A stretch of DNA of 64,000 bases from assembly GCF_000478585.1 (NCBI RefSeq), contig NZ_ARWI01000001.1:1550001-1614000 (forward strand). The letters are read 5' to 3'. Below are positions 18,983-45,944 of this stretch, piece after piece. Origin of the DNA: Thiomicrorhabdus sp. Kp2. Lineage in GTDB: Bacteria; Pseudomonadota; Gammaproteobacteria; Thiomicrospirales; Thiomicrospiraceae. The position numbers and the translations under genes are program-made. Each line of letters begins with the position of its first letter. Position 1 is the stretch's first letter. Below the pieces are notes generated by a model that saw nothing but the letters and a program-made list of their open reading frames with translations, did no database searches and was not told the origin of the DNA.

Positions 18983-19609
18983 TTATTGATTGGTTAACTG
19001 GTTTACAGCTGTCCACATTTTATCGCGGCTACCAGCCATAGGCACATCCGTAAGATATTTACCATTTACTACAATCGCAGGTACACCTTCAACACCATAG
19101 GCACGGGTCATTTTAGCGGCTTGTCTAACTAATTGGTCAACTTTAAACCCCTTAAAGGTGGCGATAAAATCGGCTTCTTTAACCCCAAATTGAGTAAAGA
19201 ATTGAGCAATTTTCTCTGGAGTAAAGAGCTCTTTTTTATCTCTATGCAAGGCATCAAAAAATGGGGTGTGAGATTGTTCTAACACACCGAGTTCTTGAGC
19301 AGTATAGAAAACGCGACCCATAAATATCCAGTTTGGGTGGTTAAATACCACGGGCATACGCTCAAAATGAACATCTTTAGGTTTGGTTTTTAACCACTCA
19401 TGTAAACTCGGTTCTAGGTGATAACAGTGAGGGCAGGTATAACCAAATATCTCAACGACCTTTTTTGCATGAGGTGCAGTAGATTGCGGTTGTGGAACCA
19501 TTTTATATTCCACTCCTTGCTCTAAACCAAACCCTTCAGCGGCAAAAGTAGATATGCTCGTTGTTGCTAATAGACCTGTTAAACCAGCTAAAAATGTTCT
19601 GCGCTTCAT
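18983..19609 (-). CDS. dsbA: Thiol:disulfide interchange protein DsbA
   Basis: 208 residues. Signal peptide MKRRTFLAGLTGLLATTSISTFAA, with a twin Arg near the start, then a thioredoxin/DsbA fold with active site C-P-H-C in EIFGYTCPHCYHLEP (about residues 54-57) and cis-Pro loop GVEGVPAIVVNG. Oxidises cysteine pairs in periplasmic proteins. It is third in the resB-ccsB-dsbA run; disulfide chemistry on apocytochromes fits this neighbourhood. Confidence 0.93.
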   Translation of the reverse strand: MKRRTFLAGLTGLLATTSISTFAAEGFGLEQGVEYKMVPQPQSTAPHAKKVVEIFGYTCPHCYHLEPSLHEWLKTKPKDVHFERMPVVFNHPNWIFMGRVFYTAQELGVLEQSHTPFFDALHRDKKELFTPEKIAQFFTQFGVKEADFIATFKGFKVDQLVRQAAKMTRAYGVEGVPAIVVNGKYLTDVPMAGSRDKMWTAVNQLTNQ

Positions 19610-37999: not shown

Positions 38000-38965
<966 letters not shown>

Positions 38966-39391: not shown

Positions 39392-40048
39392 ATGAAAAAA
39401 CTCATACTTGCTTCTGCACTTTTTGCAGGTTCATTTGCCTCTCATTCTTTATATGCTTCTTCAATGGAAAATGTAGGTTTAGGTATTAATTATGGAGCCT
39501 TTTCAGGACCTTCTTTAGAGCTTTCATACCCAATTTCAGATACTGTGCAAGTACGTGGTGCACTGTCTGGTGGAATGGGACTTTCAGAAACGGCAAAAGA
39601 TACTGATATTGAATATGATGTAGAAGCCGATGGTGGTATTCATCGTATAGCTTTGGACTACCATCCTTTTGCTAATGGGTTCTTTTTATCGGCAGGTTAT
39701 GCCATTAACAATTTTGAACTGGATGCGAGTGGAAGTAAATCAGGTAGCGTAACGGTTGGTAATGATACTTTCACTGGTGATGTGAATATAAATGCTAACA
39801 TTGCTTGGGATAATGCGCCTACTTTAAGTTTAGGTTGGGGTCATTCACCTCAACAAGGTTTAGGGTTTATGATTGAAGCAGGTGCTTTCTTTACTGGGTC
39901 GCCAAATACAGATATAAACGGTACTTGTACTGGTACATGTACGGGATTTGACGAAGCTTTAAAAGACGAAGAAGTTAAGCTACAGAAAGACGTGGCCGAT
40001 TATGATTTCCTTCCAATGCTTCAAGCAGGCATTACCTACCGTTTTTAA
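39392..40048 (+). CDS. Outer-membrane beta-barrel protein (OmpA/OprF-like small barrel)
   Basis: 218 residues with signal peptide (MKKLILASALFAGSFASHSLYAS) and repeated amphipathic strands, ending in GITYRF with terminal Phe. Includes LALDYHPFANGFFLSAGYAINNF and LGWGHSPQQGLGFMIEAG, reminiscent of small lipid A-related or adhesin barrels, but not firmly assigned. A two-Cys loop (GTCTGTCTG) is near residue 178. Followed by its own terminator. Confidence 0.7.
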   Translation: MKKLILASALFAGSFASHSLYASSMENVGLGINYGAFSGPSLELSYPISDTVQVRGALSGGMGLSETAKDTDIEYDVEADGGIHRIALDYHPFANGFFLSAGYAINNFELDASGSKSGSVTVGNDTFTGDVNINANIAWDNAPTLSLGWGHSPQQGLGFMIEAGAFFTGSPNTDINGTCTGTCTGFDEALKDEEVKLQKDVADYDFLPMLQAGITYRF

Positions 40049-40241: not shown

Positions 40242-41396
40242 TTATCGATTGGTTTGAGGGGAGTTTGCTATAGAACTATCCATTTCATTAGCAAAGACAC
40301 CAACGGTACGGTTGCCATCTATATTGACATCAACTAAACCTGTTAAATTTTTAGCTTCTGTACCATTAAACGATCCATTAATCGAGCCTGTCGCCGCTTG
40401 GTTATTTTCTACCCAGTTTGGCCTAAAGAAAGAGCCTTGATTTTCATAAGTTTGGTAGTTTAAGCTGTTTTCTGTTGAGCTAAATTGATTACCTGTGACC
40501 ACACCTGAAGCTTGTAGTTTGCTATCAGGAGCAAAAATTCTACTACCATCCAGCTTCCAGTAACCATCCCAACTTGAATTACCAAAATTCACTGTAATTT
40601 GATTATATCGAGTACCTGACTTATCTCCTTTATACATACCATAACCACTGTAAGTAGCCGTTATATTGTTTAAAGCCAATTCATTGATATAGTCTGCACT
40701 GGTTAATGACCCAGCAACAAATTTTGATTCATATGGAAAACTGCTATCATCTTGGGTTGTAAAATAACCTGATGTTACATTCTCATTATTGAGAGCATCA
40801 GGTAATTGACTACCACCAAAAAGGGTGGGTAAAACAGAACTTACAACAGTAAGAGATTCATCTTCTGAAGTTATTTTAAAGTAGGAGTTATCCCAAGCGG
40901 GGGCCGTAAAGGATGCATCCTTATTAAATGTGACAGTTGATCCATCCTCTAAGTTCATAACCGCCAAAATATTATCATTATCAGGATCATGATTAATATT
41001 TAATACGCCTGTTAGATATTTGTATTGTTGAACATTGCGACGAGCAGGTTGTTGTTCAACTGGATTGTTGTCCATCTCTACTGGCACTCTCAAAATGGCG
41101 TAACCTCGCCAGTTGTATGAAGCCTCTTCATTAACTTCATTAGGTACAACAACAGATCCACCAAATTCATCGCCATCAATAGCTGGTAATCCAAGTGCTG
41201 AGTTGCTTCCATCAACGGGCCCAGCGGCTGTAGGCTCTTGCTGGCTTAAATAGGTGTCAATACCACACCAAATCCCCCATCCTTGGAGGGTATCAGTGCT
41301 GTTACACTCTTTTTTGTCAATAGCGTAAACCGTTGTTGGGCTGAGTAAGCCTAAAATGATTAGGCTAAGTATTTTTTTTGAGAAATGAATGTTCAT
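40242..41396 (-). CDS. Secreted TbpB-like beta-barrel protein, putative Slam cargo
   Basis: 384 residues. Cleavable signal peptide (KILSLIILGLLSPTTVYA) without a lipobox Cys; two Cys lie just after cleavage (ECNSTDTLQGWGIWC). The C-terminal half carries the TbpB-type barrel pattern: AATGSINGSFNGTEAKNLTGLV followed by DVNIDGNRTVGVFANE. This matches transferrin-binding-protein-like and hemophilin-type cargos, which are exported through Slam proteins. The Slam-like gene lies directly upstream, 37 bp away. Likely ligand (heme, metal, other) is unknown. Confidence 0.7.
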   Translation of the reverse strand: MNIHFSKKILSLIILGLLSPTTVYAIDKKECNSTDTLQGWGIWCGIDTYLSQQEPTAAGPVDGSNSALGLPAIDGDEFGGSVVVPNEVNEEASYNWRGYAILRVPVEMDNNPVEQQPARRNVQQYKYLTGVLNINHDPDNDNILAVMNLEDGSTVTFNKDASFTAPAWDNSYFKITSEDESLTVVSSVLPTLFGGSQLPDALNNENVTSGYFTTQDDSSFPYESKFVAGSLTSADYINELALNNITATYSGYGMYKGDKSGTRYNQITVNFGNSSWDGYWKLDGSRIFAPDSKLQASGVVTGNQFSSTENSLNYQTYENQGSFFRPNWVENNQAATGSINGSFNGTEAKNLTGLVDVNIDGNRTVGVFANEMDSSIANSPQTNR

Positions 41397-41433
41397 GAAT
41401 TATACCTCCTGGTTTATTTCATAAAAAACCTCT

Positions 41434-42711
41434 TTAAAAACGTTTACTGACTTCTAAAGAAGCGTCGGTTCGCTCGTATTCATAAATTGAGACATCCGAC
41501 GTATTGTTGTATCGGCTAATTTTTCCGTTAATAATCCAATCAGCAAAATAACCTGTTGGAATGCTATAGGTAGCACCAATAATGGCTGAGACTTCACTGT
41601 CATTTCTAGCAATGTTATAGACAGGTTCAACACCGTCATAATCAACAACTTTATATTCAACTTGACCGAAAACGAGCGAGTTTTCAGTTGCTGCGTAATA
41701 GAGACCAGCATGAGCGGATTTTGATATATTTTGTTTGTTATCATCTTTTGCATCGTTTAATGCATAGTTTAGGCCTGCTTTTGCAAGTAACTCTTGATTG
41801 TATTGGTGTTGCATCTCAACACCCAAACCGTATTTGATGCCATCTCTACCATCATTTAGGGCGGATTCAAACTCTTGGTTTGTGACTTCCCCTGTAACGG
41901 TATATTGGTTGGCTTTGTCCACTTTGGTGTAATGCGCATGGAGGCCTGTGAAAAGACCAAGTTGAGTATCTCCTAGACTAATGTGGTCAACGCGTAAATT
42001 CACACCTGCTCGCCAATCTGTACTAGAGATAAAATTGGCTCCTGTGGTAAGGGTAGCAACATCTAAATTGTAGTCGCCTGTGTCTTGATAAGCTTTTCGG
42101 TATAACCCAACAGAAGTCGCCCACTCCATTTTGACTGGACGAGATCCAATACCTAAAGTTCCAGGAACACGGTAAGTGTGATTAAGCTGAAGATTAATTC
42201 CGCCATAGTTTTCTTCTTGGGCAATGGAGTTATTCGCTAAGGTAAAGTCCGTGCCATTGATATTGATAATGGAATCAGTTGGACTGGCATTAATGTTAGT
42301 ATCATGACCAATGCTAACACCGACACTGCCTTCAAAAGTATGTCTGTTTTTAGATTCAGCTTCTTCAATTTCTTGTAATTGGCTTAAAAAAATCTCAATG
42401 GTTTCTTTCACTTGCGGTGGAGTGTTGGGGTCACTTAGGACTCTGTCCGCATGTAGTTTTGCTTGGCTGTATAGCGTGGCTCTAAAGTATGAAACAGCTA
42501 ATTCTAATTCGGCTCTTTTTAACTGGGGTTGGCTGTCGATGAGTTTTTCGAGCATTTCAATGGAGGCAAAGATATCACCACTTTCACGTGTTTTTAGGGC
42601 ATCTAAAAACTGTTGGTTGAAAATGTCAGAGTCTACTGAATCTGCTGCCAGTGCAAAGTTTGCCGTGGAGATAGCGAGCACACCGATTAAAAGTTTTTTC
42701 GAAAATGTCAT
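41434..42711 (-). CDS. Slam-like surface protein translocon (DUF560)
   Basis: 425 residues. Signal peptide (KKLLIGVLAISTANFALAA), an N-terminal TPR-like helical domain (about 25-125; ALKTRESGDIFASIEMLEKLIDSQPQLKRAELELAVSYFRATLYSQAKLHADRVL), then a C-terminal beta-barrel of about 290 residues ending TDASLEVSKRF. This is the two-domain layout of Slam/SlipAM (PF04575) outer-membrane proteins that move TbpB-like cargos to the surface. Cargo gene follows in the same direction. Four tandem 10-bp repeats lie 110-149 bp upstream of the start. Confidence 0.75.
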   Translation of the reverse strand: MTFSKKLLIGVLAISTANFALAADSVDSDIFNQQFLDALKTRESGDIFASIEMLEKLIDSQPQLKRAELELAVSYFRATLYSQAKLHADRVLSDPNTPPQVKETIEIFLSQLQEIEEAESKNRHTFEGSVGVSIGHDTNINASPTDSIININGTDFTLANNSIAQEENYGGINLQLNHTYRVPGTLGIGSRPVKMEWATSVGLYRKAYQDTGDYNLDVATLTTGANFISSTDWRAGVNLRVDHISLGDTQLGLFTGLHAHYTKVDKANQYTVTGEVTNQEFESALNDGRDGIKYGLGVEMQHQYNQELLAKAGLNYALNDAKDDNKQNISKSAHAGLYYAATENSLVFGQVEYKVVDYDGVEPVYNIARNDSEVSAIIGATYSIPTGYFADWIINGKISRYNNTSDVSIYEYERTDASLEVSKRF

Positions 42712-43029
42712 GTTTAAATCCTTAGATTTGAATAATTTTGTTTAGTTAATTTCAATTCTAGTCTTAAAAAATGACTAATCAATGGCTTGCAGTGGTTAAG
42801 CATTATAAGAGTCATACTATTGTCGCTGCATGTCGGTATTTGTCGGTGTTTGTCGTTTTCTTAGATGGTTTGAGGTTTGATTGATTAAACGCGTTAGAAA
42901 ACGGGTTAAATATTTTGCAAACGTTTGTATTTGATTCAATCAATAAAAAGATTGATAAGGTTCTGCTCATTGCTTTGATTATTATGAATATAATCTCTTC
43001 TATCACTGTTAAATTAACTTGGAATTTTC
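42712..43029. other. 318-bp divergent intergenic region with decamer repeats
   Basis: Between the Slam-like gene and the DUF389 gene. Besides the tandem decamers (42821-42860) it shows AT-rich promoter-like sequence near 42960-43000. No gene seen. Confidence 0.5.
42821..42860. repeat. Four tandem 10-bp repeats, TGTCG-N5
   Basis: TGTCGCTGCA, TGTCGGTATT, TGTCGGTGTT and TGTCGTTTTC follow each other without gap, so TGTCG recurs exactly every 10 bp, about one helical turn. Sits upstream of the Slam-like gene. Confidence 0.85.
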
Positions 43030-45008: not shown

Positions 45009-45944
45009 TTATTTAGCCATTGCCGCACGTTTTTTAGCAATTAGGTTTTGAATGATTGGAGTCATCATTAAATCCATTGCTTGAACCATGTGAGAACCGC
45101 TACAAACTAAAGTTTCAGCATTCTGTAAGAAAGCCCCTTCAATTTGATCTTTGATTGCTTCAAGGTTAACGTCTTGGTGACGAACGTGACAGATGATTAG
45201 TGAATCTTCTGGCGCTGGTCCCATTGGTGCATCTGGAGACATGGTTGAAAACGGATCAGAGGTATCAATTAACGGTACACGGTGGAAGTTAATGTGTGTA
45301 CGGTGGAACTGAGGAACGATTGTTTCAATATAGTCAGGCATACGCTCTAGGATTGTGTCACGAACCTGCTGTACTGAATATGGACGTTCAGCGGTATCAC
45401 GATAGATTTTCTGCATCCACTCAATGTTGATAGATGGTGCTACACCAATCCCTAAATCAACATACTGTGCTACGTTATGCATACCTTCTTCTGGACCGTG
45501 ATCCATACGCTTAACCATTCCGTGAAGACCTTCATAGAAAAGTACATCTGTTCCTTCTGGAATTGGCTCCCAAGGAGTGAATTCACCAGACTGGTAGTTT
45601 GTTCCACCTAGACGTGCATTATGCTCATCTGCTTCTTCATCACTGTGAATGTAGTAACGACGTTTACCCGTAGCCGTCTCTTTATACTCTTTAAAAAGTG
45701 CTTCTAGTTCGCCAAATTCGTTTGCCGCTTCTGAGAAGTGAGTAAGTGTTGGACCACCGCTGGCTTTTGATTCAGCCACTTTTTCTTTCATTTCAGCACG
45801 GCTGTATTTGTGGTAGCTGTCACCTTCAACGATAGCTACGTTAAGGTTTTCGCGATCAAAAATCTTTTCTACAGCGCGTTTAACAAAAGAGGTACCTGCT
45901 CCAGATGAACCTGTTACGGTAACGATAGGGTGTTGTACTGACAT
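45009..45944 (-). CDS. prkB: Phosphoribulokinase
   Basis: 311 residues. P-loop VTGSSGAGTSFVKRA, VEGDSYHKYSR, and the RuBP-cycle-specific YYIHSDEEADEHN and VLFYEGLHG blocks identify the proteobacterial class I enzyme. Phosphorylates ribulose 5-phosphate to ribulose 1,5-bisphosphate, so the organism fixes CO2 by the Calvin cycle. ATG is preceded by AGGAG. Stands alone here: no RuBisCO, carboxysome or cbb genes in the window. Confidence 0.95.
   Translation of the reverse strand: MSVQHPIVTVTGSSGAGTSFVKRAVEKIFDRENLNVAIVEGDSYHKYSRAEMKEKVAESKASGGPTLTHFSEAANEFGELEALFKEYKETATGKRRYYIHSDEEADEHNARLGGTNYQSGEFTPWEPIPEGTDVLFYEGLHGMVKRMDHGPEEGMHNVAQYVDLGIGVAPSINIEWMQKIYRDTAERPYSVQQVRDTILERMPDYIETIVPQFHRTHINFHRVPLIDTSDPFSTMSPDAPMGPAPEDSLIICHVRHQDVNLEAIKDQIEGAFLQNAETLVCSGSHMVQAMDLMMTPIIQNLIAKKRAAMAK

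Follow-up and report, generated by a model that had tools for sequence, protein, structure and literature searches.

Genetic organization of the locus

Two adjoining genes on the minus strand form the center of the locus, which lies in a window of 64,000 nucleotides (the whole stretch of DNA that was analyzed) from Thiomicrorhabdus sp. Kp2. The first gene of this operon (41434–42711) encodes a Slam, the outer-membrane translocon of a T11SS, of 425 aa with a signal peptide, a TPR part, and a barrel ending in F. The second (40242–41396) encodes a secreted handle-barrel protein of 384 aa, its putative cargo, and is separated from the first by a gap of 37 nt that holds AGGAGG (41405–41410, minus strand), which resembles a ribosome-binding site for the cargo gene. 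The N-termini of both proteins were read as signal peptides. Four TGTCG repeats with 10-bp spacing (42821–42855, plus strand), proposed here to be a response-regulator operator, lie between the Slam gene and a divergently oriented DUF389 gene, 110–144 nt before the start of the Slam gene.

Several other genes of the window deserve mention. A small outer-membrane protein is encoded convergently with the cargo (39392–40048); it resembles CarO weakly (46.4 bits, cut-off 300), and in genome G009 the same place is occupied by a protein that resembles it at its start and end. A phosphoribulokinase gene is found at 45009–45944, and the named relatives of the pair come from Thiomicrorhabdus, so that the autotrophic lifestyle suggested by the initial annotation is probable.

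Identification of the Slam translocon

The barrel of the first protein (residues 128–425; 41437–42330, minus strand) matches SlipAM (PF04575) with 26.2 bits at a cut-off of 22, across profile positions 3–288 of 288. A TPR_Slam-like stretch (residues 34–85; 42457–42612, minus strand) scores 19.3 bits, under the Pfam cut-off of 35.2. Both families that the initial annotation had named for profile searches, PF04575 for the translocon and PF01298 for the cargo (28.9 bits, cut-off 26), were thus found above their cut-offs, and further tests were made because the margins were small. The NCBIfam model slam_lipo (NF041636) gave 23.4 bits with the Slam, under its cut-off of 80. Searches of the PDB with phmmer, using either the Slam alone or the cargo alone, returned no recognizable relative, and a Slam profile reached nothing relevant in the same database. 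When the seven orthologous Slams were aligned by hhalign with five other Slam homologues, the probability was 100, with an E-value of 1e-40 over 382 columns, and the proposed Slam-like translocon is supported by this match.

It is very improbable that the protein is a porin of the DUF2860 or BBP2_2 type standing beside an unrelated secreted protein. DUF2860 does score slightly higher than SlipAM (28.8 bits, cut-off 22.9) and, at E ≤ 0.01 in orthologues scanned singly, it was detected in six of the seven and SlipAM in four; however, TPR_Slam was detected in all seven at the same threshold. Moreover, SlipAM is aligned across its whole profile, whereas DUF2860 is aligned across its C-terminal part only (positions 161–285 of 294), and both the hhalign match and the strict pairing with a TbpBBD protein speak for a Slam.

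Anatomy and fold of the cargo

The cargo begins with a signal peptide (41322–41396, minus strand) that ends by eye in a signal peptidase I site, VYA-I. A simple lipobox pattern is absent from all nine members of the cargo family, which agrees with the earlier description of the cargo as non-lipidated. It would be made as a Sec precursor and then cut by signal peptidase I. The mature protein starts with a conserved head (residues 26–83; 41148–41321, minus strand) that carries invariant C31, W43, and C44 and a QQE..AAG motif. The two Cys that the initial annotation had noticed near the mature N-terminus, C31 and C44, are present in all nine cargos as well as in a MAG homologue (L037 3886–5172), and are consistent with a disulfide; the mature cargo probably holds one such small N-terminal bridge. 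The dsbA gene reported for the window was also found (18983–19609, PF01323). It was described that unfolded TbpB is moved by Slam1 with the help of Skp (PMC9090332), which bears on how a periplasmic disulfide would fit into the process. In the MAG homologue, a small residue (S, by eye) precedes the first Cys, which leaves room for a loose lipobox in this protein, unlike in the nine family members.

The C-terminal part of the cargo (residues 234–369; 40290–40697, minus strand) matches TbpB_B_D (PF01298), which was detected at E ≤ 0.01 in five of the nine family members. An AlphaFold model of the mature cargo built from eight sequences had a mean pLDDT of 54.5, with the head below 50, and only its barrel is usable; a single-sequence model (pLDDT 32) was discarded as useless. 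The best part of the model is an eight-stranded C-terminal barrel of the TbpB C-lobe type (mature residues 221–347). A Foldseek search with this model placed the TbpB C-lobe in the first row (E 2e-8), in a list that also contained TbpB, NHBA, LbpB, fHbp, and hemophilin, and the 50 rows listed from VIA-align comprised fHbp, NHBA, TbpB, HphA, and a hemophore (Z 11.9–14.1). The HphA and hemophilin chains were ranked under rows of TbpB, NHBA, and fHbp, and the cargo has the handle-barrel fold. A cargo profile searched against the PDB reached hemophilin (E 0.056) and a transferrin-binding-protein-like chain weakly, at E 0.05–0.06. The TbpB-type barrel ending is therefore confirmed by both family and predicted fold and, judged by the model, the cargo is unlike an integral barrel of the outer membrane. 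Neither outcome that the initial annotation had named as refuting its proposal, a lack of profile similarity to Slam or TbpB or a cargo predicted as an integral barrel, was observed.

Different parts of the cargo have changed to different degrees. When the genome of the window is compared with G009, the Slams share 75% identity, and the cargos share 62% in their heads, 14% in their middle parts, and 28% in their barrels; in the draft genome G029, the middle is missing altogether, with head and barrel kept. Such a pattern would suit a competition or evasion factor whose hypervariable body is exposed to phages, predators, or competitors, the variation itself being its point. However, no defence or toxin gene was recognized by eye around the pairs, and rapid change is common among surface proteins whatever their function, which makes this explanation improbable.

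Distribution of the pair

Among 58 genomes searched, the cargo family was detected in 7 of the 32 genomes of the genus and in none of the 26 others. The same seven genomes possess a close Slam (49–75% identity), which adjoins the cargo in every case. Two chromosomal contexts of the pair were observed, with genes named by eye in relatives: beside gyrB and phosphoribulokinase (three genomes) and downstream of an rpoD-like gene (four genomes). A search with the Slam (P0002, E ≤ 0.001) gave matches in 9 of the 32 genomes, of which those in G022 and G028 were distant only. PF04575 was likewise found in nine genomes of the genus, above cut-off in six; the Slams of G001 and G029, as well as the one beside the cargo of G012, escaped detection. 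Within the class, 369 sampled genomes were searched: the cargo profile was detected in four, including the own genome, and PF01298 in ten, of which seven exceeded the cut-off. A plain protein scan for relatives among genome contigs found nothing; an alignment scan of the contigs found six named loci, five from Thiomicrorhabdus and one from an unclassified gammaproteobacterial MAG.

The own genome has one Slam and two cargos. The second cargo is an orphan (C1:565933–566991), about 1 Mb away from the pair, and no recognizable Slam was present among its neighbors; it is probably exported by the same Slam, acting in trans. Two arrangements were seen elsewhere. G016 contains a tandem pair of cargos behind one Slam (L030 8773–11624), and in G086, a member of the class, a head-like stretch (WARWC..PTAAGG) inside a reading frame that contains stops lies near an integrase-like gene (by eye; L040) and looks like a cargo remnant.

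Is the cargo a hemophore?

The initial annotation had compared the pair to secreted Slam cargos such as hemophilins. The likeness extends to the fold and to a lipid-free secretion signal, but a role in heme binding is not supported. No His is invariant among the nine cargos, each mature cargo having zero to four and that of the window one. Seven TonB-receptor barrels were found by a profile search of the own genome, none of which lies in the window, and the nearest is about 38 kb from the pair; none was recognized by eye around the other six pairs. For comparison, the heme ligands are two His in HphA and one in hemophilin, and the HphA locus includes the receptor HphR (PMC8560813).

The cargo could nevertheless be a hemophore or metallophore like HphA, capturing heme or a metal extracellularly for delivery to a TonB-dependent receptor. 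Its fold class is the same, with HphA or hemophilin chains among the structural matches and hemophilin within weak reach of the cargo profile; receptors of the required kind are encoded elsewhere in the genome, and hemF (38009–38965) is located 1.3 kb past the cargo. On the other hand, inspection by eye of the four loci with the rpoD context revealed no hemF, and the receptors are placed as described above. A single unconserved His, or other ligands, might still serve, but the lack of an invariant His in the family makes a hemophore less likely, and we regard this explanation as unlikely overall.

A shared array of TGTCG repeats

The repeats upstream of the Slam start at 42821, 42831, 42841, and 42851. 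Three places in the 2.7-Mb genome carry an exact triple TGTCG pattern with spacers of 5–6 nt, namely upstream of the Slam, upstream of the orphan cargo, and at C1:1821557; the reversed-pattern control gave none. The orphan cargo has three repeats at a similar distance, which also stand before a divergent gene (L025 10299–11039). The third site is located 98 nt past a gene for an OmpR-type response regulator (Response_reg and Trans_reg_C), which comes after a gene for a 7TMR-DISM histidine kinase. These two genes lie between a type II secretion operon (GspD and GspG above their cut-offs) and an MSHA-type pilus operon, with the array between the regulator gene and the latter. The pilus operon encodes prepilins, MshL (278 bits, cut-off 250), and an MshE-type ATPase with an MshE-type c-di-GMP motif (52.5 bits, cut-off 38).

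Among the matches listed, orthologues of the regulator with at least 62% identity were present in 4 of the 32 genomes (the own genome, G009, G015, and G022, the last with two), and the remaining matches listed had at most 35% identity. In all four genomes, an array follows the regulator gene at a distance of 63–128 nt. The second regulator of G022 (L118 7264–7962, 62% identity) adjoins an exported-looking protein of 1617 aa, and no TGTCG array was found in the stretch around it. When the fixed 10-bp array was searched with at most one mismatch in the 32 genomes, 12 matches were obtained versus 12 with the reversed control, so that genus-wide only the placement of the array is telling, not its frequency. 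The four regulator genomes had 8 matches versus 0 in the control, and the other 28 had 4 versus 12; all eight in the regulator genomes stand at the regulator or at the Slam.

A matrix was built from 16 repeat units beside regulators only, with the Slam sites left out. It scored 35.2 for the upstream region of the own Slam, 28.1 for that of the orphan cargo, and 28.2 for that of the G009 Slam; the real score was not reached in any of 200 shuffles of each region, the largest of which was 15.2. Slam arrays were thereby found in both genomes that contain the pair together with the regulator, and in none of the five with the pair alone. Background scores (−2.7 to 4.3) were obtained for ten other Slam or cargo upstream regions, namely those of the five pairs without regulator, the second G016 cargo, and four FecR-associated Slams. 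Three of these four Slams, all of which are devoid of the array, belong to regulator genomes (two in G009, one in G022). Among 50 ORF upstream regions of the window, only the two lying in the common intergenic region reached 35.2, the next score being 6.1. The drifted form of the repeats in G009, in a pattern written after its sites had been seen, was found twice in the 32 genomes, once at the Slam promoter and once in the regulator-side array of the pilus locus. A scan for sigma-70 promoters returned 6 matches, fewer than in shuffled sequences (mean 9.8).

As the array stands between the Slam and DUF389 genes and is absent from five of the seven pairs, one could suppose that an ordinary T11SS pair happens to lie beside repeats that belong to the divergent DUF389 gene, the link to the pilus being coincidental. 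However, arrays are also carried by the orphan cargo and by the G009 Slam, and inspection by eye showed no DUF389-like gene next to either of them. The absence of such a gene from the inspected surroundings of the G009 pair favors the Slam as the target. Together with matrix scores far above those of shuffled sequences, this renders a coincidence rather unlikely.

It should be noted that the pair occurs without regulator and array in five of the seven genomes, of which one is 99% complete and four are drafts of 79–93% completeness, from whose assemblies the regulator could be missing. Co-regulation with the pilus is thus not essential to the job of the cargo, and the retention of the pair in these five genomes suggests that the link is lineage-specific.

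FecR-type cargos and a tryptophan element

A second kind of TbpBBD protein was encountered in the course of the analysis. Proteins with both a FecR (PF04773) and a TbpB_B_D domain, each over cut-off in all five scanned (two from L060 and one each from L061, L062, and L063), occur in Thiomicrorhabdus genomes G009 (L060), G028 (L061), and G022 (L062) and in the class member G276 (L063). In the three Thiomicrorhabdus loci, they adjoin a second, distant type of Slam; no second Slam was found in the own genome. L060 continues with a CHASE2-guanylate cyclase (PF05226, PF00211) and a lactamase-fold/GAF/HD protein, and similar-looking ORFs follow in L061 (both kinds) and L062 (the first kind only). 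It is possible that this FecR-cargo/Slam/cyclase locus is a secretion-plus-signalling module. Of the papers found on FecR with CHASE2, none describes the present system by its title or abstract.

A short element, [WYF][GA]xW, is present in all 19 cargos of the Thiomicrorhabdus, FecR, and G279/G157 types (set E; 1.75 expected by shuffling), ten of which represent one family and nine of which were not found through the element, and in 2 of 13 other TbpBBD proteins (set H; 0.57 expected), both sets having been chosen after the proteins were seen. Set H comes from loci L042–L059 and L066, and its label "host-type" refers to protein architecture rather than to named organisms. Omitted from it were L045 (G169), just a 103-aa barrel piece without the element, L046, for which L066 stands in, and L052, the same protein as L043; L047 and L050 were placed in set E as G279 and G276. 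A 440-aa ORF of L048 (G251), which has the element twice, was left out of both sets. In two long proteins of L063, the element recurs three and four times with a spacing of 240–260 residues. The conserved head of the present cargo was considered as a Slam-recognition tag, which is not claimed here since in FecR-type cargos the element stands just before the barrel and not at the N-terminus.

A proposed role in surface colonization

With a probability of about 0.5, the pair is a T11SS operon whose cargos are co-regulated with an MSHA-type pilus as part of a surface-colonization program, and does not serve heme uptake. Once processed, the cargo would cross the outer membrane by way of the Slam and become a handle-barrel protein that is either soluble or loosely held at the surface. 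The 7TMR-DISM kinase and its OmpR-type regulator probably control the Slam operon and the orphan through the 10-bp-spaced TGTCG repeats, and would activate both of them jointly with the pilus operon, the cargos serving at the cell surface during attachment. As the regulator is probably common to all three, the cargos most likely belong to the surface-colonization program. A more specific version is put forward tentatively, at less than even odds: a single two-component system would switch the pilus, the T11SS translocon, and two cargos, the latter being secreted or surface-held colonization factors, each combining a hypervariable body with a constant head closed by a disulfide, that act with the pilus in a free-living chemolithoautotroph.

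Soluble T11SS cargos, including some from free-living bacteria, have already been published (PMC8406197), and what is new here is therefore the regulatory link, not the pair alone. According to PMC12282271, the experimentally verified T11SS are all from the animal-associated cluster 1, and cargos were surveyed in clusters 1 and 3. The main texts of these two papers contain neither "thiomicro" nor "FecR". By title and abstract, none of the best-ranked matches in the literature on T11SS or Slam, on Thiomicrorhabdus with secretion or T11SS, and on surface lipoprotein assembly with response regulators or MSHA describes such a system. If the proposed role is true, T11SS would be used outside host colonization and heme capture. 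In a free-living genus, a small system that comprises a single Slam, two cargos, and a predicted operator offers a tractable test of T11SS function away from hosts. It also allows one to ask whether one Slam serves an unlinked cargo, and the conditions of its use can be approached directly through the predicted operator.

Comparison with known systems

TbpB, NHBA, and fHbp are surface lipoproteins of host-adapted bacteria. The cargo shares with fHbp, NHBA, and the TbpB C-lobe the eight-stranded C-terminal barrel but, unlike these proteins, it is devoid of a lipobox and has one barrel. It also resembles hemophilin and HphA (the latter with HsmA), which are soluble Slam cargos with an N-terminal clamp or handle and a C-terminal barrel (PMC8560813); HphA has two heme His and HphR in its locus, neither of which was seen for the present cargo. 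By its features, the pair can be likened to subcluster 1B of the T11SS/TXISS with soluble TbpBBD cargo, in which a DUF560/SlipAM protein stands beside a protein with a signal peptidase I site and one TbpBBD barrel (PMC8406197, PMC12282271). It differs from that subcluster in the Cys-bearing head of the cargo, in that no heme locus was recognized, and in sharing a putative response-regulator operator with an MSHA-type pilus locus.
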